DNA of 64,000 bases from Caulobacter vibrioides (GTDB lineage Bacteria > Pseudomonadota > Alphaproteobacteria > Caulobacterales > Caulobacteraceae). The DNA lies in assembly GCF_002310375.3 (NCBI RefSeq), contig NZ_CP023315.3:1054001-1118000 (forward strand). Direction: 5' to 3'. Below are positions 22,066 through 63,203 of this stretch, piece by piece. Below the pieces are notes generated by a model that saw nothing but the letters and a program-made list of their open reading frames with translations, ran no database searches and was not told the DNA's origin. The position numbers were made by a program, and so were the translations under genes. Position 1 is the stretch's first letter, and every line of letters starts with the position of its first letter.

Positions 22066-25000
22066 ATGGCTTACACACTGACCCAGCTCGAAACGTTCTT
22101 TAAGAACGCCAACGCTGGCACCGCCGCGACCGCCGCTCAAATCACCGGTCTGCAAGGCATCGCCAACCAAAACGCCACGGGCGTGTTGACCGACGCAGCC
22201 GCGCTGCAATCGGCCATCGACCTGGCCTCGGACGTGACCACCGCGGTCAGCATCCAGACCTACCAATTCTTCACCGGCAAGGCGCCGAGCGAAGCTGGTC
22301 TCGCCTTCCTGAACGCCGCTTATGTCGGTTCGGGCGTGCAAGCCGGCCTGAACGGTGAAAACCGCTACATCGCCCAGTCGGTCTCGCTGGCCCTGGACAA
22401 CCCGGACGCGGAAGCCAAGTTCGCCGCCACCTACGGCTCGCTGTCGATCATCGAAGCGACCAGGCCGCCTACAACGTGATCGTCGGTAACTCGGCCGCCG
22501 CCGCTGCTGGCATCAACGTCGACGCCGCTGTCGCCTTCCTGACCAGCGCTTCGTCGATCGCCTACTACACCGCCTTCGTGAAGGCCAACGTTCCGGGCCT
22601 GCTGGCTTCGGAAGTTGACCTGGCCGTCAAGGCCGCCGTGGTCGGTTCGATCATCTACAACGCGACCGTGTTCAACAACGGCGCTGGCGTCGGTTCGTAC
22701 GCCACGGCCGCCAACAACCTGGTCAAGGACCTGGCTGACGACGGCAAGCTGGTGAACAACAACACCGCTGGTATCGACCTGTTCACCGCCTATCCGGTGG
22801 TCCCGGGCGTCGGTTCGACCTACGCTCTGAGCATCAACGCCGACACCCTGACGGGCACCGGTGGCAACGACACCTTCACGGGCGTCGTGAGCGCTACTGC
22901 CAACACCACCACGGCCACCACCGGTGACGTGCTGAACGGCGGCGCTGGCACCGACACCCTGAGCCTGACCGTCGCCTCGACGGCCAACCCGGGTCTGCTG
23001 CAAACCTCGAGCATCGAAACGGTCACCGTTCGCGCTCTGGGCGATGCGACCATCGACCTGCTGCTGGCTAACGATATCGTCAACCTGAACAGCACGGGCG
23101 GCACCAACGACCTGACGGTGAACAACGCTCAGGTCGCTACGACCTTCGGCGTTTCGAACACCATCACGACGGGCGGCGCCACCGCTGACCTGACTGTCAA
23201 CTTCCGCGCTGTTGACGTTCTCGGCACCGCCGACGTCGCCAAGCTCAGCGTTGAGTCGGCTGGTTCGTCGGTTCTCGCGGCCGGTCAAACGGTCCCGACC
23301 GTCACCGAATCGGTCCTGACCGTCGGCGCTGGCGTTGAAGCCATCTCGCTGGCCACCAAGGGTTCGAACTGGGTCAACGTTGTTGGCACCGCCACGGTCG
23401 ACAAGCTGACCGTGACCGGCGACGGCGTGAACACGATCACCGTGGGCACCATGAAGGCCGCCGCCACGATCGACGCTTCGACGTCGACGGGCACGAACAC
23501 CTTCGCCCTGGGCACCGCCCTGTCGACCGGCGACGTCGTCACCGGCGGTACGGGCGCTGACACCGTCTCCTTCACGGCTTCGAACACCGCGTCCGTGACG
23601 ATGTCGGGCGTCGAAACCCTGCAGGTCAACGGCGGCACGGCCGTCACGACCTTCAGCGCCAACCCGAACCTGACCTCGCTGAACGTCCGCAGCACCGACG
23701 CGACCACGGTCGCTGGTCTGACCACGCTGTCGAACCTGAACTATCAGGGCACCCAGCTGGCGGCTTATGCCGGCACCTCGGGCAACGTCTCGCTGAACAC
23801 CGCTTTCGCGGGCGCCAGCGACGCTCTGGCCATCAACGTTGGCAACCGTGGCGTCACCGCCAACGGCGGCTACAACATTGGCACCCTGAAGGTGTCGGGC
23901 GTTGAAGGCATCACCCTGACCCAGACCGACATGCTGGCCACGGGCACGACGACCGCTGTCATCCACGACACCGGCCTGAAGACCCTGACCGCCACGACCC
24001 CGGGTAACCTGGCTCTGACGCTCAGCACCTTCGCCAGCAACGCTCCGGGCTTCTCGGGCACCGCCAGCACCACGGGCAGCAACTCGGTCACCTCGATCGA
24101 CCTGAGCGCCGTCGTCGGCACCGGCAACATGACGTTCGAAGCCGGCACCTTCGCCGCCGCTGCGACCGTCAAGGCCGCGACCGGTGGCAGCAACTTCACG
24201 TTTGGCGCTGAAACCGCCTCGGACGTGATCACCGTCACGGGCGGTAACGGCGTTGACTCGATCACCACGGGTAACGCGGGTACGTTCACGGTCACCCTGG
24301 GTGGCGGTGCGACGAACACCTTCGACGGTTCGGCTCTGACGGCTGCCGCCAGCGGCAACACCGTCAACGTGACGGGCGGCGACGGTGCTGACACCATCAC
24401 CGGTGGCGCCAACGTCGACACCATCGTCGGCGGCGCCGGCAACGACATCATCACCGGTGGTCGTGGCGCTGACGTCATCAACGGTGGCCTGGGCGCCGAC
24501 ACCTACCGCGTCGCGGTTGGCTCGGCTGCTGTTGCCGCCACGGGTGAAACCCAAACGATCACGGCTGCTGTCAACGGCGCCGGTAACGTTGCTGGCACCT
24601 ACGTCATCGCCGTTGGCGGTGGTTCGACGGTCCAGTTCACGACCGACGCGACCCCGACCGCCGCTGAGTTCGTGACCGGTATGGCTGCTGCCCTTACGGC
24701 CGCCGCCGCTGGTCGCTACACGGTGTCGACCGCTGGCGCTGACATCACCCTGACGTTCGCGAACACCCTGGGTAACGTCGCCAACACGACGGTTCAGGTC
24801 TTCAACAGCGCCACCGCCGCTGGTGCGACGGCTGCTCTGACGAACGGCCTCGACATCACCGTGACGAACACGACGCAAGGCGTGAACGCTGTGGCCGCTG
24901 TCGACGCTGACTCGACCTCGACCGCGATGGACCAACTGACGTTCGTGTCCAACTCGGACATCATCGACGTTGTGGCCGGCGCGATCGTGATCAACGGTGG

Positions 25001-25304
25001 CGACGCCGGTACCGCCGCTGCTGCTGGCAACGCCAACATCTCGGCGACGGGTCTGGCCACGTTCCACGTCAACGACAACACCCTGGCTCTGAAGCTGACG
25101 GCTATCGCCGCCGACCTCGCCGCCGGTGGTGAAGCTGCTCGTGAAGCCGCGGTCTTCGTTGACCAAGGTCAAGCCTATCTGTTCCTCAGCGACGGTGTCG
25201 CTGGTTTCAGCGCTGGCGACGCCGTGATCCAACTGGTTGGTATCACGACCCTGGCGAACGGCATGACGCTGTCGGGTGGTGGCGACATCACCGCCATCAG
25301 CTAA
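22066..25304 (+). pseudogene. rsaA: S-layer protein RsaA, split by an apparent 1-base deletion
   Basis: Monomer of the paracrystalline surface layer, secreted by RsaD/E/F and anchored to O-antigen through its N-terminal domain. ATG at 22066 with GGGAG upstream. The first frame stops at 22477-22479 (137 codons). The frame continues from 22461 if one C is restored: ACC-AGG would be ACC-CAG, joining SIIEAT to QAAYNVIVGN. The repaired gene encodes 1079 residues: N-terminal anchoring domain (QTYQFFTGKAPSEAGLAFL), long Thr/Ala/Gly-rich beta lattice region, RTX calcium repeats near codons 765-815 (GGAGNDIITGGRGADVINGG), and a C-terminal type I secretion signal ending GDITAIS. Codon use is strongly biased throughout, including after the break, so decay is recent or the deletion is a sequencing error. 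Confidence 0.85.
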
Positions 25305-25835: not shown

Positions 25836-27569
25836 ATGTCCATTATCTCCTCCGGCGCCAAACCCACCGTGCTCGACGCGGCGGTGAAGGTGGCCAAGCC
25901 TGCGGTGATCGCGGCGCTGGTTTTCAGCTTCTTCATCAACCTGCTGGCGCTGGTCAGCCCGCTGTACATGCTGCAGGTCTATGACCGCGTCCTGACCAGC
26001 CGCAACGTCGCCACCCTGGTGGTCCTGACGTTGATCTGCGTGTTCCTGTTCCTGGTCTACGGCGCGCTGGAAGCGCTTCGGACCCAGGTTCTGGTGCGCG
26101 GCGGCTTGAAGTTCGACGCCATGGCGCGCGATCCGATCTTCCGCTCCGTCCTCGACTCCACCCTGACCCGGCGCGGCGCCGGCGGTCAGGCGTTCCGCGA
26201 CATGGATCAGGTGCGCGAGTTCATGACCGGCGGCCTCATCGCCTTCTGCGATGCGCCCTGGACGCCCGTATTCATCATCGTGTCGTGGATCCTGCATCCC
26301 TTCTTCGGGATCCTGGCGATCATCGCCAGCGTGATCATTTTCTGGCTGGCGGTGATGAACGATCGCGCCACCAAGAACCCCATCCAGCTGGCGACCGTCG
26401 CCTCGATCGCCGCGCAGAGTGATGCGAACGCCACCCTGCGCAACGCCGAGGTCATGAAGGCCATGGGCATGTGGGGCGGACTGCAGGCCCGCTGGCGCGC
26501 CCGTCGCGACGAGCAGGTGGCCTGGCAGGCCGCCGCCAGCGACGCCGGCGGCGCGGTGATGTCGGGCATCAAGGTGTTCCGCCAGATCGTTCAGACCCTG
26601 ATCCTGGGCGGCGGCGCCTATCTGGCCATTCACGGCGAGATCTCGCCCGGCGCGATGATCGCCGGCTCGATCCTGGTGGGTCGCGCCCTGGCCCCGATCG
26701 AAGGCGCCATCGGCCAGTGGAAGGGCTTCATCGGCGCCCGTGGCTCGTGGGACCGCCTGCAGCTGATGCTGCGCGCCGAGTCCGACCGCACCGACCACAT
26801 GGACCTGCCCGAGCCGCGCGGCGTGCTGTCGGCCGAGGCCGCCTCGATCATGCCGCCCGGGGCCCAGGCCGCGACCATGCGCCAGGCCAGCTTCCGCCTC
26901 GACGCCGGCACGTCGCTGGCCATCGTCGGCCCCAGCGCGGCGGGCAAGTCCTCGCTGCTGCGCGGCATTGTCGGCGTGTGGCCGTGCGCGGCCGGCGTGA
27001 TCCGTCTCGATGGCTACGACATCAAGCAGTGGGACCCCGAAAAGCTGGGTCGTCACGTGGGTTACCTGCCGCAGGACATCGAGCTGTTCTCCGGCACCGT
27101 GGCCCAGAACATCGCCCGCTTCGGCGAGTTCGAGGCGCATGACGTCATCGAAGCCGCCAAGATGGCCGGCGTCCACGAGATGATCCAGGCCCTGCCCGAC
27201 GGCTACGACACCGCCATCGGCGAAGGCGGCGCCTCGCTCTCGGGCGGCCAGCGCCAGCGTCTGGCCCTGGCCCGCGCCCTGTTCCGCTCGCCGGCCCTGA
27301 TCGTGCTGGACGAGCCCAACGCTAGCCTCGACCAGGTGGGCGAAGTGGCGCTGACCCAGGCCATGGCCAAGCTGAAGGCCGCCAAGCGCACGGTCGTGTT
27401 CGCCACGCACAAGGTGAACATCCTGAGCCAGGCGGACTACATCATGGTCGTCAATCAGGGGGTGATTTCGGACTTCGGAGAACGAGACGTGATGCTGGCC
27501 AAGCTGATGGGCGCGCAACCGCCCCAGCCGCCCCAGCCGCCGATCCCCGCGCCGCAGCGCGCGAACTGA
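25836..27569 (+). CDS. rsaD: Type I secretion ABC transporter RsaD (S-layer exporter)
   Basis: 577 residues. Inner-membrane ATPase of the S-layer type I secretion system. The N-terminal membrane domain (about 15-300) contains VIAALVFSFFINLLALVSPLYMLQVYDRVL and further helices. The ATPase domain has Walker A GPSAAGKSS, Q-loop GYLPQDIELFSG, signature LSGGQRQRL and Walker B LIVLDEPNASLD. It belongs to the PrtD-type family without a peptidase domain, which exports substrates with C-terminal signals. Directly followed by rsaE 61 bases later. The gene is intact although its main substrate gene is frameshifted; two further S-layer-like substrates at 49-57 kb could still use it. Confidence 0.95.
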   Translation: MSIISSGAKPTVLDAAVKVAKPAVIAALVFSFFINLLALVSPLYMLQVYDRVLTSRNVATLVVLTLICVFLFLVYGALEALRTQVLVRGGLKFDAMARDPIFRSVLDSTLTRRGAGGQAFRDMDQVREFMTGGLIAFCDAPWTPVFIIVSWILHPFFGILAIIASVIIFWLAVMNDRATKNPIQLATVASIAAQSDANATLRNAEVMKAMGMWGGLQARWRARRDEQVAWQAAASDAGGAVMSGIKVFRQIVQTLILGGGAYLAIHGEISPGAMIAGSILVGRALAPIEGAIGQWKGFIGARGSWDRLQLMLRAESDRTDHMDLPEPRGVLSAEAASIMPPGAQAATMRQASFRLDAGTSLAIVGPSAAGKSSLLRGIVGVWPCAAGVIRLDGYDIKQWDPEKLGRHVGYLPQDIELFSGTVAQNIARFGEFEAHDVIEAAKMAGVHEMIQALPDGYDTAIGEGGASLSGGQRQRLALARALFRSPALIVLDEPNASLDQVGEVALTQAMAKLKAAKRTVVFATHKVNILSQADYIMVVNQGVISDFGERDVMLAKLMGAQPPQPPQPPIPAPQRAN

Positions 27570-27630
27570 CGTCCGCCGTTCCCCCTTTTCCCGGCGCCGG
27601 TTCACCGGCGCCTCTTAGGCTCAAGCTCAC

Positions 27631-28941
27631 ATGAAGCCCGCTCAGATCCAGCGTCCGACCGATAACTACAAGGGCGTCGCCCGCATTGGCTACGCCGTCA
27701 TCGCCTTCACCTTCGTAGGGGTCCTGGGCTGGGCCGCGTTTGCGCCGCTGGACAGCGCCGTGATCGCCAGCGGCGTCGTCAACTCCACCAGCAACCGGCA
27801 GACCGTTCAGCACCTCGAAGGCGGGATGCTGCGCAAGATCCTGGTGCGCGAGGGCGATCGGGTGAAGGCGGGTCAGGTGCTGTTCCAGCTGGACCCGACC
27901 CAGGTCGACGCCGCCGCCGGCATCACCCGCGCGCAGTACGTCTCCTTGCGCGCGCTTGAGGCCCGCCTGGTCGCCGAGCGCGATCAGCGCCCGACGATCA
28001 GCTTCCCGGCGGACCTTCTGGCCCAGCGCGCCGACCCCGCCGTCGCGCGCGCCCTAGCCGACGAACAATCGCAGTTCACCGAGCGCCGCCAGACCATCCA
28101 GGGCCAGGTCGACCTCTTCAACGCCCAGAAGGCGCAGTTCGAGAGCGAGGTCGACGGTATCGACCGTCAGACCCAGGGTCTGAGGGAGCAACTGGGCTTC
28201 ATCCAGGACGAGCTGGGCGACCTGCGGAAGATCTACGAAAAGGGCCTGGTGCCGCGGCCGCGCCTGTTGGCGCTGGAACGCGAACAGGCCTCGCTGTCGG
28301 GCTCCATCGGCAAGCTGACCGCCGACCGGGCCAAGGCCGTGCAAGGCATGGGCGAGACCCAGCTGAAGATCCGTCAGATTCGTCAGCAGTTCTTCGAACA
28401 GGTCAGCGAGGCGATCTCCGAGACCCGCGTGAAGCTGGCCGAAGTCAGCGAGCGCGAGATCGTGGCCGCAGACGCCCAGCGCCGCGTGAACATCGTCTCG
28501 CCGGTCACCGGCGTCGCGCAGGCGTTGCGCTTCTTCACCGAGGGGGCCGTGGTGCGGCCGGCCGAAGCGCTGGTGGATATCGCGCCCGACGAGCGCAGCT
28601 TTGAGATCCACGCCCAGTTCGCGCCGACCGATGTGGACAATATTCGCAAGGGCATGATCACCGAGGTGCGGTTGCCCTCGTTCCACTCGCGCGAGGTGCC
28701 GATCCTGAACGGCAAGATCGTCTCGATCTCGCACGATCGACTGACCGATCCCGAGGGTAAGGTGTCTTACTTCCTGGGCGTGGTGACGGTGGACATCAAG
28801 CAATTGCCGCCGCATCTGCGCGGCAAGGTCACCGCCGGCATGCCGGCCCAGGTGATCGTCCCGACGGGCGAGCGCACTGTGCTGCAGTACCTGTTCTCAC
28901 CGCTACGAGACACCCTGCGCACGACGATGCGCGAGGAATAG
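27631..28941 (+). CDS. rsaE: Type I secretion membrane fusion protein RsaE
   Basis: 436 residues, HlyD/PrtE-type periplasmic adaptor. One N-terminal membrane span (IGYAVIAFTFVGVLGWAAFA, about residues 20-40), a biotinyl-lipoyl-like half (SGVVNSTSNRQTVQHLEGGM, ILVREGDRVKAGQVLFQLD), a long alpha-helical coiled-coil hairpin (about 110-275), and the second lipoyl half with the C-terminal beta barrel (VNIVSPVTGVAQALRFF, LPPHLRGKVTAGMPAQVIV). It links RsaD to the outer membrane channel. It forms an operon with rsaD. Confidence 0.95.
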   Translation: MKPAQIQRPTDNYKGVARIGYAVIAFTFVGVLGWAAFAPLDSAVIASGVVNSTSNRQTVQHLEGGMLRKILVREGDRVKAGQVLFQLDPTQVDAAAGITRAQYVSLRALEARLVAERDQRPTISFPADLLAQRADPAVARALADEQSQFTERRQTIQGQVDLFNAQKAQFESEVDGIDRQTQGLREQLGFIQDELGDLRKIYEKGLVPRPRLLALEREQASLSGSIGKLTADRAKAVQGMGETQLKIRQIRQQFFEQVSEAISETRVKLAEVSEREIVAADAQRRVNIVSPVTGVAQALRFFTEGAVVRPAEALVDIAPDERSFEIHAQFAPTDVDNIRKGMITEVRLPSFHSREVPILNGKIVSISHDRLTDPEGKVSYFLGVVTVDIKQLPPHLRGKVTAGMPAQVIVPTGERTVLQYLFSPLRDTLRTTMREE

Positions 28942-48479: not shown

Positions 48480-49259
48480 ATGACGGCGGAATCAACTGGA
48501 CGCGATTGGACGGGGGCGGACCTCGCGGTGGTGGTGGGCGACTACATCGCCCAGTTGGAGAAGACGCTCGCCGGCAAGCCCGTCGACCGCGCCGCCCACG
48601 ACCGCACCGTCCGCTTTGTCACCGGCAAGGCCGACGGCCCGATCAGCTGGAAGCAGGGCGAGATCTCGGCGGTGCTGTCGTTGATCGGCGTGCCGATCCT
48701 CAAGGACCAGCCGCCTCGCTGGGCCTATGACAACGCCCTGCTCGACGCGGTCGAGGACCAGCTGGCCGCCAAGCCCGCCCTGCTGGCCGCCGCCGTGCGC
48801 CCCGCCGCCCTGTTCACCGCCCCCAGCGCCGTCGCCCTGATCGAGGCCGCCCCGCCCAAGCCGATGCCGATGACCGAGCGCCTGATCCAGGCCATCCAGC
48901 GGTTCGACATGGGCGGCCGCGAGGCCGACGACCGCTTCCTCAAGGGCCTGGGGATCGCCAGCGTCGTCGCCCACGAGGCCCGCCGCCTGTCGGATCGCGG
49001 CCGTCCGGACCTGGCCGGACGTATCCGTCCCGCGCGCGGCGGCGACCCCGAGGGCTGCGACGTCATTAGCTTTGGCCTCGACGAGATCCCGCGCCTGATC
49101 GTGGTCAAGGCCACCCTGGCCGGCGAGGTCTCGCCCTTCGGCCTCTCCCAGGCCGAATACGACCTCTCCAAGGCCCAGCCCCACGCCTTCCGCCTCCGCC
49201 GCGTCTACGACCTCTTGGGCGAGGCGCGGTTCTACCGCCTGAAGCCGCCGTTTGGGTGA
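48480..49259 (+). CDS. DUF3883-type C-terminal domain protein
   Basis: 259 residues, no signal. The C-terminal part (about 190-259) GCDVISFGLDEIPRLIVVKA, TLAGEVSPFGLSQAEYDLSK, then FRLRRVYDLLGEARFYRL follows the DUF3883 pattern, a PD-(D/E)xK nuclease-like fold of restriction and other enzymes. The usual E-x-K appears as VVK here, so the acidic ligand is replaced and nuclease activity is doubtful. The N-terminal half is unassigned. A damaged copy of its 3' end occurs beyond the next gene. Confidence 0.7.
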   Translation: MTAESTGRDWTGADLAVVVGDYIAQLEKTLAGKPVDRAAHDRTVRFVTGKADGPISWKQGEISAVLSLIGVPILKDQPPRWAYDNALLDAVEDQLAAKPALLAAAVRPAALFTAPSAVALIEAAPPKPMPMTERLIQAIQRFDMGGREADDRFLKGLGIASVVAHEARRLSDRGRPDLAGRIRPARGGDPEGCDVISFGLDEIPRLIVVKATLAGEVSPFGLSQAEYDLSKAQPHAFRLRRVYDLLGEARFYRLKPPFG

Positions 49260-49279
49260 GGGGGGGGCGGGGGGGCTCA
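49055..49279 (+). repeat. Direct repeat, left copy (intact DUF3883 3' end)
   Basis: The final 205 coding bases of the DUF3883 gene plus the G-rich tract after its stop are repeated at 51821-51994 with a 45-base in-frame deletion and scattered changes. The two copies bracket the S-layer-like gene. Confidence 0.8.
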
Positions 49280-51643: not shown

Positions 51644-51820
51644 AGCGCAGGGGCGAGAGGGATGGGGCGGGGGTGTAAGTTACCCCCGTCGCAACGCCGC
51701 GCAGACGTCTTCGCGGAGCCTTGTCCGCGCGCGATAGGGCGCACCGCTCGAAGCGCGTTGTTACATCGCTGATGATCTGTTCGAGCGCTTGCCCGTCCTC
51801 CGCCGACTTGGCCTCCACCG

Positions 51821-51994
51821 CTGCGACGTGATCAGCTTTGGCCTCGACGAGATCCCGCGCCTGATCGTGGTCAAGACCACCCTGGCCGGCGAGGTCTCGC
51901 CCCACGCCTTCCGCATCCGCCGCGTCTATAACCTGCCGGGCGAGGCGCGGTTCTAGCGGCTCAAGCCGCCGTTTGCGTGAGGGAGCGGGGGGGT
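51821..51994 (+). pseudogene. Truncated copy of the DUF3883 gene 3' end
   Basis: CDVISFGLDEIPRLIVVKTT, then LAGEVSP joined directly to HAFRIRRVYNLPGEARF, then TAG. Compared with the gene at 48480, 15 codons are deleted in frame and TAC became TAG. No upstream part is present. The gap 51644-52194 otherwise holds no supportable gene. Confidence 0.8.
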
Positions 51995-52194: not shown

Positions 52195-55100
52195 ATGACG
52201 TCGACGGCGACCGTTAGTCCCAGCGGGACCAACCTTATTGACCAGCTGCTCTCGGGTCAGCGCTGGGCCAGTGGAGACCTGACGTTCGCCTTCGCGACGA
52301 GTGAGAGCGCACTAGGCTACGCCTTGGGCGATAGCGCCTTGTTCGGAGCGCTCACATCGTCAGAGCAGACAGCGTTCAAGCGCATTCTTGAGGACTGGGC
52401 GGCGGTCTCTGGGGTGACCTTCACCCAGGTCGCTGACCCCCAGGCCGCCGATATCGCGATCTATTGGTACCGCACGTCGGGACCGGCGGCCGGGGTTGTT
52501 CGGTATCCGGATGGCTCGCTGCAGGGCGGTGACATTCAACTACGCAGCGCTCTTACAGGTGCGGATCTTGGACAGAGCGGCAGTGCGAGCCATTTCTGGG
52601 CGCTTCGAGCCATTGGCGAAGCCTTGGGACTGAGCGCCAACATTGGCGGCTCCCCGACATCAAATAGCGTCCTAGTCTCCGAGACGGTGATGAGTGACTT
52701 CGGCTACTACGGGCACGACGTTCGCCTGATCGCCGAGGGCAGTTATCCGACCTCGCCCATGCTGAACGATATCGCGGCGATTCAGTACCTCTATGGGCCA
52801 AACAGCAACGCCTTTACCGGCAACCTGGGCGATACGACCTATACCTTCAGCGCCGGGGCCTCCGTCATCTTCCAGACCGCGGCCGACGGCGGCGGGACCG
52901 ACACCTTCAACTTCGGCGGCTATACGACCAATCTGTCGGTCGATCTGCGGCCGGGTGGCTGGACGGATCTCGGCGGGCAGTACGCGGTGCTCGACACCGC
53001 CGATGCGACCAAGAGGCCACCGGGCAACATCGCGGCGCCGCTCGGCGGCGGCGCCCAGCTGATTGAGAACGCCTATGGCGGCTCTGGGAACGACACGCTG
53101 ATCGGCAATTCGGCCAACAACGTTCTGCGTGGAGCCGCTGGGAACGACGTGCTGAAGCCGGGGGCGGGCGATGACACCCTGACCGGCGGGACGGGCGACG
53201 ACACCTTCGACTTTTCCGATGGCGGTGCTGGCCGCAAGCAGATTACCGACTTCGCCGCTGGCGACACGATCAAGCTGCGCGACGCGGCGGCCGGCGGAGC
53301 CATCCTGTTGGGCGACGGGGCCAGCCTGAACAGCGGTCAGGTCGCCTTTGGTTCAGACGGCTCCAACGCCGTGCTCCGTGTCGGGTTGGACGCCACGCCC
53401 GGCGCGGACCTGACCATTGTCTTCGCCAACGGCGCAGGTTTCGACAACCTGTCGCTAAGCGGACAAACGATCAGCTATGTCGCCGACAGCGCCGGCCCTC
53501 GGGTGACGGGGGTCGTCGTCCCCGCCAACGGCGCCTATCGCGCTGGCCAGACCCTGTCCTTCACCGTCAGTTTCCACGAGGCGGTGACCGTCACCGGGAC
53601 GCCGCAGCTGGCCCTGACGATCGGCTCCACCACGCGCCAGGCCGACTATGTCAGCGGCTCAGGCGGCTCCAGCCTTGTGTTCAGCTACACGATCCAGAGC
53701 GGCGACCTGGATACGAACGGCGTTGCGGTCGGAACCTTGCGGCTGAACGGCGGTACGCTGAAGGATACGACCGGCAACAACGCCGACCTGACCCTGAACA
53801 ATGTCGCGTCCACCACGGCGGTGCTGGTCGATGCGACAGCGCCGTCAGTCGCTTCGGTCGCCGCGCCGTCATCGGGCATCTACAAGGCCGGCGCCACGCT
53901 GGACTTCACCGTCGTCTTTGACGAGTCGATCACCGTCACCGGCGCGCCCAAGCTGGCTTTGACCCTGGACACTGGCGGGACGCTGGACGCGACCTATCTC
54001 AGCGGTTCTGGGACCAACGCCCTGGTCTTCCGCTACACCGTTCAGGCCGGAAACGCGGATGCCGACGGGGTGGCCCTAGGCTCCTCGATAGCCCTCAACG
54101 GCGGCACGCTAAAGGACGCGGCGGGCAACGACGCTGTTCTTATGCTGAACAACGTTGGTTCGACAACCAACGTGCGCGTCGACGCCGTCGCGCCGACTGT
54201 AGCCTCTGCTGCTGTCCCGACCGCACGCACCTACAAGACAGGCGACGTACTGGAATTCACCGTCAATTTCAGTGAGGCCGTCACCGTCACCGGAACGCCG
54301 CAGGTCGCCCTGACGATCGGCTCGACCGCGCGCCAGGCCGATTATGTCAATGGATCGGGCAGTTCGTCGCTCGTCTTCCGCTACACCGCGCAGAGCGGTG
54401 ACCTGGACAGCGACGGAATTGCGGTCGGACTTCTGGGTTTGAATGGCGGAACGCTGAGGGACGCGGCCGGTAACGACGCCGTCCGGACCTTGAACAGCGT
54501 CGGCTCCACCGCTGGCGTCCTGGTCGACGCGACATCGCCGACTGTCAACTCGGTCTCCGTCCCCCCGAACGGCGCCTACAAGGCCGGGGCAAGCTTGGAC
54601 TTTACTGTCAATTTCAGTGAGGTCGTCACGGTCACCGGGACGCCGCAGCTGGCCCTGACGGTGGGCGCGGCCACGCGTCATGCCGACTATGTCAGCGGGT
54701 CTGGTACGACGGCTCTGATCTTCCGTTACACCGTCCAGGCGGGTGAAACAGACACCGACGGCATTGCTGTTGGAACACTGGGGCTGAACGGCGGGATCCT
54801 CAAGGACGCAGCGGGCAACGACGCCAACCTGGTGCTGAACAGTGTTGGTTCATCCGTCGGTGTGCGGATTGATACCGCCTCACCGACCATCGGTTCTGCG
54901 TCTGGCCCGTCGGCGGCGACCTACAAGGTCGGCGACCATCTGGACTTCACGGTCAACTTCAGCGAGGCGGTGACGGTCTCGGGCTCGCCCAAGCTGGCCT
55001 TGACCCTGGACAGTGGCGCAACGGCGGGTGCGACCTATTTGAGCGGTTCGGGCACAAGCGCGCTTGTCTTCCGCTACGCCGTGCAAGCAGGCGACGCCGA

Positions 55101-56637
55101 TACGAACGGGGTGACGCTAGGCGCTGGAATCACCCTGAACGACGGGACGCTCAGCGACGCTGCGGGAAACGCCGCCACCCTGACCGGTCTCAGTGTCTCG
55201 GGCCTGTCCAATGTCAAGGTCGACGGGGGCGCGCCTACCGTTCAATCGATCGCTCGTGTCGGCGCTGCGGTCAGCAAGGCGACGAGCCAGTCGTTCACCG
55301 TCACCTTCAGCGAGGCGGTGACCGGCGTCGACGTCAATGACTTCGTCGTGACCGCCACAGAAACCGCCGAGGGGACGATCACCGGAGTCACGGGTTCGGG
55401 GGCGACCTATACCGTGAGCCTCGGCTCGGTGAGCGGCGACGGGACCCTGCGCCTGGACTTGAAGGGGGCGGGCACCGGGATCGCCGACGTGGCCAGCAAC
55501 GCGATCGCAGCGGGCTTCGCCAGTGGTCAGAGCGTCACGATTGACAACACCATTGTCACCCCGACGATCGCCGTCGTGGCTGGCGACGACACGATCAGTG
55601 CGGGCGAGGTCGCTGGCCTGACTCTGACGGGCGCGGTCGAGGCCGGCGCCACGGTAGCCCTGGCTATAGGCGGGATCGCCAAGACAGCCAGCGTCAGCGG
55701 GACAACCTGGACCTATGCCCTGACCCAGGGCGATATCGACGGCCTAGGGACAGGGGCCAAGACCATTGCGGTCACCGCTACCGACGCCGTGGGCAATGTC
55801 AGCACGACCGCCAGCCGGACCGTCACCATCGCCGCCAGCGCCCTGACCCCCGCGCCGACCCCCACTCCCCAACAGCCGCTCAGCGTTGTTGACCTGACCG
55901 CCCAGCCGGCGAGCACGTTCGTCAATCTGGTCTTGGGAAGCCTGAGCATCACCCCCGGATCGCTCAAGACCGGCAGCGTGACCACCACCTTGCCCGACGG
56001 CGCCGTTGTCCAGAACATGGCGGCCCGCGTTCAGGCCGATGTGAACGCCGCCCTCTCCGCCTTCAAGAGCGGCCTCATCAGTCAAGCCTTGTTCGAGGAG
56101 CGCCTGACTCTGGCTGTAGCCCCGACCACGGGCGTCGCTCACGACGCCTACAAGTTCTTCGCAGGGGTGACCCCGACCCGAGCGGGCATGTCCTGGTTGA
56201 TCGACTCGATCAGCAATCCCAACGATCTGACTGATCAGTACTACGCCAAGTTCACCGTCGAGAACCGCTATATCAACTTTGCGGTCAACCTGGGCAAGTT
56301 CGGCGAAGGGCATGCGGGGTTCGAGGCCAAGTACGGCAGCCTGAGCTTCTCCGAGGCGGTGGCCAAGGCCTATGGCGAGATCATCGGGGTCTTCGAGGCT
56401 CAAGCCGCGGGTTTCGATGTCGCCGCGGGGCTGCGCTATATCCAGGGGCAGGAAGCCTACTTCCTCGCGGTGGGCGGTGATGATCTGGGCGCCAAGGCCG
56501 CTATGGCCGGCTATGTGCTAAGCGTCGGAACCGCCTACCGCGTTGGCAAGTACTACGAGGCGCTTGAGGACTATGTCATCGCCACCGTCGTTGGCCAGGC
56601 CAACCCAGCGTCAGCGCCTGCGTGGGATCTCGGCTAG
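52195..56637 (+). CDS. Giant surface protein: inactive serralysin domain, Ig-like repeats, C-terminal RsaA-type anchor
   Basis: 1480 residues; start ATG with GGAG 7 bases upstream. Residues 1-200 follow the serralysin (M10) metalloprotease fold, with PQAADIAIYWYR, the Met-turn VMSDFGYYG and the following PMLNDIAAIQYLYGPN, but the zinc motif HEIGHALGLSH is RAIGEALGLSA (138-148), so all catalytic residues are gone. RTX repeats (GGSGNDTLIG, GAAGNDVL, GAGDDTLTGGTGDDTF) lie at about 294-340. Seven Ig-like repeats of about 115 residues start near 431, 551, 665, 780, 895, 1012 and 1121. A PTPTP linker precedes a C-terminal RsaA-like anchoring domain (about 1240-1480; YKFFAGVTPTRAGMSWLIDS, YYAKFTVENRYINFAVNLGK). 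No standard C-terminal secretion signal is apparent. Possibly a surface scaffold or adhesin. Confidence 0.85.
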   Translation: MTSTATVSPSGTNLIDQLLSGQRWASGDLTFAFATSESALGYALGDSALFGALTSSEQTAFKRILEDWAAVSGVTFTQVADPQAADIAIYWYRTSGPAAGVVRYPDGSLQGGDIQLRSALTGADLGQSGSASHFWALRAIGEALGLSANIGGSPTSNSVLVSETVMSDFGYYGHDVRLIAEGSYPTSPMLNDIAAIQYLYGPNSNAFTGNLGDTTYTFSAGASVIFQTAADGGGTDTFNFGGYTTNLSVDLRPGGWTDLGGQYAVLDTADATKRPPGNIAAPLGGGAQLIENAYGGSGNDTLIGNSANNVLRGAAGNDVLKPGAGDDTLTGGTGDDTFDFSDGGAGRKQITDFAAGDTIKLRDAAAGGAILLGDGASLNSGQVAFGSDGSNAVLRVGLDATPGADLTIVFANGAGFDNLSLSGQTISYVADSAGPRVTGVVVPANGAYRAGQTLSFTVSFHEAVTVTGTPQLALTIGSTTRQADYVSGSGGSSLVFSYTIQSGDLDTNGVAVGTLRLNGGTLKDTTGNNADLTLNNVASTTAVLVDATAPSVASVAAPSSGIYKAGATLDFTVVFDESITVTGAPKLALTLDTGGTLDATYLSGSGTNALVFRYTVQAGNADADGVALGSSIALNGGTLKDAAGNDAVLMLNNVGSTTNVRVDAVAPTVASAAVPTARTYKTGDVLEFTVNFSEAVTVTGTPQVALTIGSTARQADYVNGSGSSSLVFRYTAQSGDLDSDGIAVGLLGLNGGTLRDAAGNDAVRTLNSVGSTAGVLVDATSPTVNSVSVPPNGAYKAGASLDFTVNFSEVVTVTGTPQLALTVGAATRHADYVSGSGTTALIFRYTVQAGETDTDGIAVGTLGLNGGILKDAAGNDANLVLNSVGSSVGVRIDTASPTIGSASGPSAATYKVGDHLDFTVNFSEAVTVSGSPKLALTLDSGATAGATYLSGSGTSALVFRYAVQAGDADTNGVTLGAGITLNDGTLSDAAGNAATLTGLSVSGLSNVKVDGGAPTVQSIARVGAAVSKATSQSFTVTFSEAVTGVDVNDFVVTATETAEGTITGVTGSGATYTVSLGSVSGDGTLRLDLKGAGTGIADVASNAIAAGFASGQSVTIDNTIVTPTIAVVAGDDTISAGEVAGLTLTGAVEAGATVALAIGGIAKTASVSGTTWTYALTQGDIDGLGTGAKTIAVTATDAVGNVSTTASRTVTIAASALTPAPTPTPQQPLSVVDLTAQPASTFVNLVLGSLSITPGSLKTGSVTTTLPDGAVVQNMAARVQADVNAALSAFKSGLISQALFEERLTLAVAPTTGVAHDAYKFFAGVTPTRAGMSWLIDSISNPNDLTDQYYAKFTVENRYINFAVNLGKFGEGHAGFEAKYGSLSFSEAVAKAYGEIIGVFEAQAAGFDVAAGLRYIQGQEAYFLAVGGDDLGAKAAMAGYVLSVGTAYRVGKYYEALEDYVIATVVGQANPASAPAWDLG

Positions 56638-60108: not shown

Positions 60109-61830
60109 CTAGCGGGCGAAAGCCACCGCATAACGGAAGCTCCGGCGTTCGCCGGCCGGGAGCGTGACCCGCCAGGCGACCTGACCCTGGCGGATGTCGT
60201 GCTTCTGGGGTTCGGCCACGACCTTGAACTGCGGCGCGCTGGGGTCGTGACGGATCTCCACCGTGATCGGGACCGTCTTGGCGTTGGCCAGGTCGAGCTC
60301 GTAGGTGCGGCGCACGCGGCCTTTCGACAGCGTCCGTTCCTCGACCAGGCGCGGCCGGGCGTGAACGTCCATGGCGCGGCCGATGACGAGGTCCAGCGGC
60401 TCTCCCACCGCCACGTCGCGCACCGCCTGCTCGCCGGCGAAGGTCGGGCGGCCGGCGGCGGTCTCGATCGCCGACAAGGCGCCCGAGGGCAGGGGCTTGC
60501 CCAGACCGTTGGCGGTCTTGTTCTCCAGCCGCAGCACGACATTGGGCGTGATCAATGGCGCATCCGCCGCGTCATAGCCGTCATAGCTGTCCATCTCGAC
60601 GGCGTAGAGCCGCTGGAAGGCGACGTCCTTCTGGTCGAGGAAGGCCACCTGCTTGGTCTGCCGGGCGTTCAGGGTGACCAGCTCGGGCAGGGTGTAGAGC
60701 TTGTAGTCGCCCAGGTTCGACTGCTCGGCCAGCTTGGCGCGCGCGCCGGTGACCATGATCTCTTCGGCTCCGAAGCGAGCCATGGGCGCGGCCGACATCA
60801 CCGGGGGGATGGGCAGAGGCGGCTGCGGCGACGCCGGCGGTGGCGGCGCCTGGCCGAAGTGTGTGGTGTCCATCGGCCAACAGGCGCGGTGAATGGATCG
60901 GGCCTTGCCCCTGTCCACGTGGACGGGTGTGCGCGACAGCTTTCCGGCGACCGTCTGGGTCTTGGCGTTGGCGAACTGGCTGCCGCCGCTGTTGACCAGG
61001 GTCAGCCAGCCGGTCAGGTCCAGGCGCTGGCCGTCGGGGTGGATGCGCGCCACATAGTCGGCCTGCCAGTTCACGCCCAGCGCCAGGTACGAGACCGTCA
61101 GTTTCGCCCGCGTGGGCGCCGGGACCTCGACGATGGTCGAGAGGCTGGGCTTGTCGGTCAGGCCCTCGGGGACGGCGCCCAGCACCAGACGCTCGGCGCC
61201 GCCCGAGCAGCCCAGGGCTTCCACCCCTTCGGCCGTACGAACCATCAGGCCATAGGGGCCCTGGATCAGCGTCGCGTCGACGGTCTGCTGGCGGCCCGTC
61301 TTGCGGTTGGTGCGCACCACCTTGATCGGCTGGCCCAGGGAGCGCTCGACCAGGGTTCCGGGGCTCAAGAGGGCGTAGTCATAGTTTCGCTCGACGGCCT
61401 TGCCGGGCAGGCCCTCGACGGCGGCGCTTTGCGGGATCAGGCCCTCGGCGACGCCGTCGAACCGCAGCGTGTGGCGGCCGGCGGGCAAATCCACCGTGCG
61501 GGTCTCGGTGACCAGCACGAGGCCCTTCTCGCGCGCCTGCTGGCGGACCCAGGGCGACATGGCCTGGAACGGTCCGTCGCCGTCGCGATAGAGGGTGATC
61601 GCCACCGTCTCGGGCGCGCGCGACGCGAGGGTCTCGGCGTGGGCCGGAAGCGCGACGGCGAGGGCCAGGGCGAGGGCGGCGGCGGCAGCCTTCTCCTCCC
61701 CCGTGAAACGGGGGAGGGGGACCGCGAAGCGGTGGAGGGGGCGCTCGTCGGCGGCGATTACGCCCCCTCCGTCACGATGCGTATTCGCATCGCGCCACCT
61801 CCCCCGCCATGCGGGTGAGGAGGACTTCAT
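60109..61830 (-). CDS. DUF4139 protein with a repeat inserted in its signal peptide
   Basis: 573 residues. DUF4139 motifs: PQSAAVEGLPGKAVERNYDY, VERSLGQPIKVVRT, LTVSYLALGVNWQADYVARI, LTGWLTLVNSGGSQFANAKTQTVAGK and a beta-rich C-terminal domain with GERRSFRYAVAFAR. The ATG lies in the upstream gene's stop (TGATG), so it is translationally coupled. Residues 3 to about 46 are encoded by a palindromic intergenic repeat; immediately after comes AAAAALALALAVALPAHAET, a normal signal-peptide core. The protein therefore has an unusually long, Arg-rich N-region, and export may be impaired. The family is found in bacteria and eukaryotes with unknown function. Confidence 0.85.
   Translation of the reverse strand: MKSSSPAWRGRWRDANTHRDGGGVIAADERPLHRFAVPLPRFTGEEKAAAAALALALAVALPAHAETLASRAPETVAITLYRDGDGPFQAMSPWVRQQAREKGLVLVTETRTVDLPAGRHTLRFDGVAEGLIPQSAAVEGLPGKAVERNYDYALLSPGTLVERSLGQPIKVVRTNRKTGRQQTVDATLIQGPYGLMVRTAEGVEALGCSGGAERLVLGAVPEGLTDKPSLSTIVEVPAPTRAKLTVSYLALGVNWQADYVARIHPDGQRLDLTGWLTLVNSGGSQFANAKTQTVAGKLSRTPVHVDRGKARSIHRACWPMDTTHFGQAPPPPASPQPPLPIPPVMSAAPMARFGAEEIMVTGARAKLAEQSNLGDYKLYTLPELVTLNARQTKQVAFLDQKDVAFQRLYAVEMDSYDGYDAADAPLITPNVVLRLENKTANGLGKPLPSGALSAIETAAGRPTFAGEQAVRDVAVGEPLDLVIGRAMDVHARPRLVEERTLSKGRVRRTYELDLANAKTVPITVEIRHDPSAPQFKVVAEPQKHDIRQGQVAWRVTLPAGERRSFRYAVAFAR
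61692..61823. repeat. Palindromic repeat inside the DUF4139 coding region
   Basis: Outer arms TCTCCTCCCCCGT and ACCTCCCCCGCCATGCGGGTGAGGAGG flank GACCGCGAAGCGGTGGAGGGGGCG, GATTACGCCCCCTCCGTCAC and a small AT-poor hairpin GATGCGTATTCGCATC. The element type (CTCCCCC...GGAGGGGGCG...GGAGG) is a common intergenic repeat in Caulobacter (from memory). Here it reads open in the DUF4139 frame. Confidence 0.75.
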
Positions 61831-63203
61831 CACCACCCCGTCTCGACCGTGAAGGTCAGCACGGTTTCACCATTGGCGGGCACCGGCACGCTCCAGCCCA
61901 GGGTCCCGGCGTCGATGCGGCGGCCCTTCAGGCTTTCGGCCTTGACGGTGCTGTCACGCCCAAGGCCGCCTTGGCGCAGCTCGATCGTCACGGGTTGGTC
62001 CTTGGCGTTGCGCAGCAGGTACTTCATCTCGTAGCGCGTCAGGCGCTTGGAGACGCGGGACTCCGCCACCAGGGTCGCCTGGCTGGAGACGTCGAAGGCC
62101 TCGCCGGTCTTGATCGACAGCTCCGAGCCCGCCGGCGTGTGGCCGATGGCGTTCTCGCCGACGAACTTCGGATCGCCGGCCGCGTCGCGCATATAGACCC
62201 GCATCGTCCCCATCGGCAGCTGGGCGCCCAGACCCGCCAGCTTGGCGTTGCTGAACTGGATGGCGACGACGGCCTTGGTGGGTTCGGCCTGGCTGGTGAA
62301 CCAGCCTTCGCGAACCTCATAGACCTTCTTGGCGGTGACGCCCTGGGCCGACAGGAAGCCGACCTGCTTGTTCTGGTTGGAGGCGATCGTGGTGCGCTCG
62401 GGCAGGGGATAGACATAGTAGTCGGCCACCCGCTCGCCGACGCCGCTTTCGGTTCCGGCGCTGATCATGCCGGGCGACCGGCGCGGCCGGAACACGCCAC
62501 CGTCGTTCAGCTGGTTGACGTCGCCCGCCACCAGCTGGGTCCGGGCGTTCTCGAACGGCGTGCCGGAATTGTTCGACAGGGTGATCCAGCCCTGCAGGTC
62601 CATCGTGCTCTTGGCCTCGTCGAACAGGGCCACATAGTCGGCCTTCCAGGAGAGGCCTGAGGTCAGGTAGCTAAGCTTGGCCTGCCGCGCCCCGGCGGTG
62701 GCGGCCTCGACACTGACCGACAGGGTCGGACGGGCGCGCAGGGTCTCGGGCACCTTGTCGAAGATCACGCGGGTGGGGACGCCGTCGTCGCGCAGCACCT
62801 CGATCCGGTCGCCGATCTTCAGCACCACGCCCTGGTTAGCGGCCAGCACGGTGGCGACCTCGGTGGTCTCCTTGCCATCGCCGGGATTGGTGCGGACGAT
62901 CTTCACCTGCTGGCCGACCGCCTTCTCCATCAGCTTGTCGGGCGTCAGCAGGTCGTAGTCGAAGTTCTGCTCCAGGATGGTCACGCCGGGCGCCGAGAGA
63001 CTGACCGTCTCGGGGCGGATCGCGGCGGAGACGTCCTTGAACTCCAGCTTCTGACGTCCGGCCTTCAGGTCCAGCGGGCGGGCGTCCTCCACCAGGGCCA
63101 GGTTGGAATTGTAGATGGTGACCGAGACGTCGCGGCCCTGCGCGTGGGCAGTGAGCGGGGCGAGTAGCAGCGCGGCCGAGGCCAGCAGCATGCGGCGGTT
63201 CAT
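61830..63203 (-). CDS. DUF4139 family exported protein
   Basis: 457 residues. Signal peptide MNRRMLLASAALLLAPLTAH, AQG cleavage. Then VTIYNSNLALVEDARPLDLKAGRQKLEF, LEQNFDYDLLTPDKLMEKAVGQQVKIVRT, and the DUF4139 core LSYLTSGLSWKADYVALFDEAK, LQGWITLSNNSGTPFENARTQLVAGDVN. It is the paralogue of the downstream gene, about the same core with a normal signal peptide. The two form a tandem-duplicate operon with overlapping stop and start codons. Function unknown; probably periplasmic. Confidence 0.9.
   Translation of the reverse strand: MNRRMLLASAALLLAPLTAHAQGRDVSVTIYNSNLALVEDARPLDLKAGRQKLEFKDVSAAIRPETVSLSAPGVTILEQNFDYDLLTPDKLMEKAVGQQVKIVRTNPGDGKETTEVATVLAANQGVVLKIGDRIEVLRDDGVPTRVIFDKVPETLRARPTLSVSVEAATAGARQAKLSYLTSGLSWKADYVALFDEAKSTMDLQGWITLSNNSGTPFENARTQLVAGDVNQLNDGGVFRPRRSPGMISAGTESGVGERVADYYVYPLPERTTIASNQNKQVGFLSAQGVTAKKVYEVREGWFTSQAEPTKAVVAIQFSNAKLAGLGAQLPMGTMRVYMRDAAGDPKFVGENAIGHTPAGSELSIKTGEAFDVSSQATLVAESRVSKRLTRYEMKYLLRNAKDQPVTIELRQGGLGRDSTVKAESLKGRRIDAGTLGWSVPVPANGETVLTFTVETGW

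Follow-up and report, generated by a model that had tools for sequence, protein, structure and literature searches.

A serralysin-fold protein without its zinc site, joined to an Ig-like stalk and an RsaA-type anchor, in Caulobacter vibrioides

We analysed a stretch of 64,000 nucleotides of the Caulobacter vibrioides genome (NZ_CP023315.3, positions 1,054,001 to 1,118,000; the whole stretch is called the window below). The gene at 52195..56637 of its forward strand, an open reading frame with GGAG seven bases upstream of the ATG, encodes a protein of 1480 amino acids (P0001) in which a serralysin-type head devoid of its zinc site is followed by a stalk of immunoglobulin-like (Ig-like) units and a C-terminal domain of the RsaA type. 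On balance, we regard P0001 as probably an exported surface protein whose head, of the adhesin or receptor type, binds without cutting while a stalk carries it and an RsaA-type anchor holds it; the S-layer, the O-antigen or something external may be the ligand. Among the explanations weighed here this binding module on a stalk is the most likely; a head kept as ballast comes next and regulation of SapA or of the S-layer third. The protein varies the layout known from SapA and does not represent a new kind of system. The best-studied pseudo-proteases are those of animals, and in the literature searched, to which most subscription papers did not belong, we found no report of a conserved bacterial pseudo-protease of the serralysin family.

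The metzincin site is formed by the motif HEXXHXXGXXH and by a Tyr at the Met-turn, which completes the zinc site. At this place P0001 reads RAIGEALGLSA (residues 138–148, 52606..52638), and in the alignment to relatives the position of the third His is a gap in P0001 itself. A scan of the whole protein found no HExxH, and residues 1–345 contain only two His. The alignment also places the Met-turn (TVMSD; M166-S167-D168, 52690..52698), where the Met is present and the Tyr ligand is gone. The head as a whole (residues 1–430, 52195..53484; inner borders approximate), delimited by profile matches and predicted fold, is a serralysin (M10B) fold with an RTX beta-roll, and structure prediction gives it as intact. 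It comprises a dead metzincin half (about 12–205), the beta-roll (206–345), in which Pfam matches RTX calcium-binding nonapeptides at residues 295–339 (53077..53211), and a serralysin-ending part (346–430). A sequence-only reading had proposed that a dead serralysin head is borne by a stalk and held by an RsaA-type anchor; the motif loss, the domain matches and the predicted head fold bear it out. Judged from its sequence, P0001 appears to be an inactive serralysin homologue and not a functional member of the M10B proteases; its head would neither bind zinc nor cleave.

The loss is shared by relatives. Residues 1–430 were searched against 5.8 billion proteins (7985 candidates scored; proteins of 0.55–1.75 times the query length), and the best 120 of 2785 matches were listed. 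Eight of the matches listed carry the RsaA_NTD domain as P0001 does, with heads 54–83% identical to its own, and one orthologue was added from genome G026, among 75 genomes searched in the genus; RsaA_NTD was confirmed there. Sequence searches for the same fusion elsewhere thus yielded nine further anchored proteins with dead heads, and the concordance of all ten (P0001, the eight database proteins and the G026 orthologue) strengthens the pseudo-protease reading. The zinc motif is gone in 10/10, with the three His, the Glu and the Tyr all lost, and the Met of the Met-turn is retained in nine (Leu in P0003). All five catalytic residues are present in the ten nearest of the matches listed without RsaA_NTD (49–58% identity). 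Searches with residues 1–205 and with a Phenylobacterium head described below gave 19 matches each; apart from that head, they brought eight new proteins, all with HEXXH. Furthermore, an HEXXH-type motif occurs, anywhere in the best-matching frame, in 28/28 of the fetched genus loci other than those of the own genome and G026 (L025–L052). The active-site loss is old and common to the anchored relatives, and the head therefore probably binds and does not cut.

Comparison of dead and active heads indicates what has been kept. The active set consists of the ten database proteins that lack RsaA_NTD and have the highest identity; the Phenylobacterium head, as near but dead, stands in neither set. 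In the active-type heads 141 columns are invariant; only 11 of these have lost the active residue in all ten dead heads, and they include all five catalytic columns. Of 340 head columns, 83 carry a single residue throughout both sets of ten, dead and active. A simple count on P0001 and the G026 orthologue puts the ratio of nonsynonymous to synonymous substitution rates (dN/dS) at about 0.30 for the catalytic half, 0.53 for the beta-roll and 0.31 for the anchor; with GC-rich codons counted in this way, dS is rough. From these column losses and the purifying dN/dS, the fold is retained while its chemistry seems to have been dropped.

A different explanation, which we consider possible but not probable, is that the head has no ligand and is mere ballast: the beta-roll would aid export and folding, the metzincin half would ride along, and the stalk and anchor would do the work as a spacer or surface brush. 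Indeed, among the dead heads the catalytic half is clearly less conserved than the beta-roll (mean column entropy 0.99 vs 0.67), which is not so in the active-type relatives (0.60 vs 0.59); from active to dead heads, variability thus rises in the catalytic half and hardly in the beta-roll. The anchor is the best-conserved part. The entropy pattern also fits a head retained for folding or export alone. However, dN/dS is still about 0.3, if roughly, in the catalytic half, the head is predicted to fold intact, and the 83 shared columns extend through dead and active rows alike. Besides the entropy pattern and the roughness of dS, other points weigh against the favoured reading. The gene is rare (2/75 genus genomes, 2/390 family genomes) and its site is not conserved, the neighbours in G026 being different when read by eye; the anchor is divergent; and the related Phenylobacterium head without an anchor is likewise dead, so that loss of the site does not depend on the anchor alone.

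A lineage in decay, whose catalysis was lost through mere relaxation and whose protein is disappearing, would account for the residues at the dead positions, which vary from row to row among the ten (R/Q; A/V/T; E/A/Q/L; A/S/T), and for the broken frame of the dead Phenylobacterium head. We hold this to be quite improbable: ten long proteins share one architecture even where head identity falls to 54%, dN/dS is purifying, and the Phenylobacterium loss is probably separate and its genome has no RsaA_NTD match. Scarcely credible is the gain of another activity, with a different metal or substrate, given that comparison of His positions found none common to all nine anchored database heads, that the dead positions vary, and that a near-fixed new residue occurs at only two columns of the dead heads.

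To follow the descent of the head, trees were built from 47 head sequences, both with and without the trait's own columns; the rows were all nine anchored database proteins (P0001 among them), 24 other listed proteins and 14 loci, and every row was retained. In both trees the ten anchored dead heads form one clade (100/96, then 98/97) that adjoins active-type serralysin-Big proteins, and SapA and its kin lie on a distant branch. The head thus does not share its recent descent with SapA, and the tree positions imply that the anchored fusion arose apart from it. Two serralysin lineages, one apparently live and one apparently dead, would each have been joined to the same kind of C-terminal anchor. 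The un-anchored head of Phenylobacterium sp. J426 (P0123; genome G333, locus L070 8872-12404; 54% identity), an exception in being dead as well, resembles P0001 in its lost motif (QQIAVALGLKD, VLSS) but has an RTX tail, a frame break before that tail and no RsaA_NTD match in its genome; it may be the sister of the dead clade or, more likely, a second loss.

The closest active-type heads (49–58% identical) belong to serralysin-Big proteins of the type of P0016 from Oceanibaculum pacificum, the one named protein among the ten active-type relatives and the nearest named relative among the matches listed, the others being mostly metagenome proteins. Like P0001 they continue into Ig-like units; unlike it they keep HEXXHXXGXXH and MSY intact, lack RsaA_NTD and have RTX repeats close to the C-terminus (by eye). 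An active secreted serralysin of this other branch would have been joined to a Caulobacter anchor and the site loss fixed, in an order that we infer.

The likeness to SapA holds for the layout and fails for the head, which comes from another serralysin branch. In SapA of Caulobacter crescentus (NF051884), as in P0001, a serralysin unit stands first and an RsaA-type anchor last, with no obvious type I signal; P0001 has the C-terminal RsaA-like domain of SapA. The available text of PMC3034196 describes SapA as a protease with an RTX-protease N-half and an RsaA-like C-half, without a clear type I signal, that apparently leaves the cell by a type I system. Against the SapA equivalog model NF051884 (cut-off 1200 bits) P0001 scores 135.3 bits, whereas the SapA candidate of the own genome, at 1184.3 bits slightly below the cut-off, retains HEIGHAIGLAH and MSY. 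There are no Ig-like units among the Pfam matches of SapA.

Metallopeptidase pseudo-peptidases likewise retain the fold and lose the active site, and sometimes regulate their active kin, according to the accessible part of a review (PMC11266112) that treats ADAMs and in which the word serralysin does not appear. P0001 might similarly regulate S-layer editing, its head taking up S-layer protein or a SapA inhibitor uncut and so tuning or shielding SapA on the same O-antigen chains. The shared anchor type and the apparently intact SapA in both genomes carrying a P0001-type gene speak for this. We nevertheless think it improbable: the two heads lie on different serralysin branches, SapA-like genes with motif and anchor intact occur in genomes without a P0001-type gene (L046 in G027, L049 in G073), and some 27 kb separate the gene from rsaA, with sapA far away. 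Returning to the non-cutting binding head, a more specific and rather speculative version is that S-layer-anchored pseudo-serralysins form a class in which a disarmed, imported protease became fixed as a surface receptor that sits beside live SapA on the same O-antigen and uses its former substrate cleft to grip a partner uncut. The partner may be external (host, prey or phage), or else a protease inhibitor or the S-layer protein. Active-type sisters and the dead clade are available for comparison, as is a SapA, apparently live, of the same cell; therefore, the fate of a protease fold after zinc loss is directly testable in a tractable surface-display organism.

The anchor (residues 1289–1468, 56059..56598), assigned by profile and sequence match, scores 143.1 bits against RsaA_NTD (PF19198; curated cut-off 27) and matches the RsaA N-terminal domain (PDB 6t72) with an expectation value (E) of 2e-28, which confirms the domain type proposed before; the RsaA domain differs in its N-terminal place and in the protein attached. 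RsaA LVDSTTNTNDLNDAYY aligns to LIDSISNPNDLTDQYY of the P0001 anchor, within the Ca2+-binding loop 77-100 of RsaA. This loop is named in PMC6978808, whose accessible part reports that the RsaA domain binds the O-antigen of lipopolysaccharide with Ca2+; outside the cell the P0001 anchor may do the same. Its C-terminal place had been taken as odd, a view that does not stand, given that SapA has the same layout and that the domain is a common C-terminal anchoring tag. Of the 11 RsaA_NTD matches, in ten genes of the own genome, those of seven genes are C-terminal (the P0001 gene, SapA, a HELGHALGF protein, an FG-GAP protein, two RTX proteins and one short protein; the RTX repeats of L015 were read by eye) and those of three are N-terminal (rsaA, the neighbour P0002 and L019). 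Within the family, 33/390 genomes have RsaA_NTD.

Head and anchor are separated by five alike Ig-like units (residues 431–1011, 53485..55227) and by two more, of the Big_5 (1012–1113) and Ca_tandemer (1114–1212) types (55228..55830). The stalk measures 553 to 1005 residues across the ten proteins, while the head end (near 420–430) and the post-stalk part (267–274 residues) keep a constant length. This is as expected of a spacer that sets the distance of the head from the O-antigen, and the stalk would carry the head at a height differing between species.

P0001 has the traits of a type I substrate, namely RTX repeats, an acidic isoelectric point (4.3) and no Cys; these traits and the SapA-like layout suggest export by the Rsa-type system. 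The likely transporter is encoded in the window, on the same strand: a type I ABC transporter (TIGR01842) and adaptor (TIGR01843) at 25836..28941, likely RsaD and RsaE from their place after rsaA, and a TolC-type outer membrane protein (TIGR01844; 33962..35545), putatively RsaF. An O-antigen-type sugar cluster (gmd, aminotransferase, glycosyltransferases) also lies in the window. The C-terminal tail (56599..56637), which ends in APAWDLG before the stop, is a candidate uncleaved type I signal; WDL recurs in nine of the ten anchored proteins and PAWDL in seven.

Some further observations concern other genes. In the window at 60109-63203 (minus strand), two adjacent genes have weak DUF4139 matches under the curated cut-off. 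In the rsaA-like S-layer gene (22067-25304) the reading frame breaks within the anchor domain, near 22455-22480, and two frames match 6t72 separately at 13-133 and 136-246; this is either a real S-layer loss or a sequencing error, and a laboratory strain with broken rsaA is known from the available text of PMC12896265. The neighbour P0002 (49376-51643, 755 aa), with RsaA_NTD near its N-terminus (E 7e-64), may be a second S-layer-type protein or a paralogue. It is flanked by direct repeats, 84–92% identical (49054-49272 and 51820-51993), the second of which resembles a leftover of the NOV_C (Pfam) gene at 48480-49259, so that P0002 lies in a duplicated or inserted stretch. Elsewhere in the genome, the RsaA_NTD-anchored protein with HELGHALGF (L016 5320-7029), which has no Pfam peptidase family at E 0.001, is possibly a live non-serralysin metalloprotease, and L017 combines FG-GAP repeats with the same anchor. 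In another genus of the family (G303, C1:2274256-2279604), three RsaA_NTD matches lie within about 5 kb.
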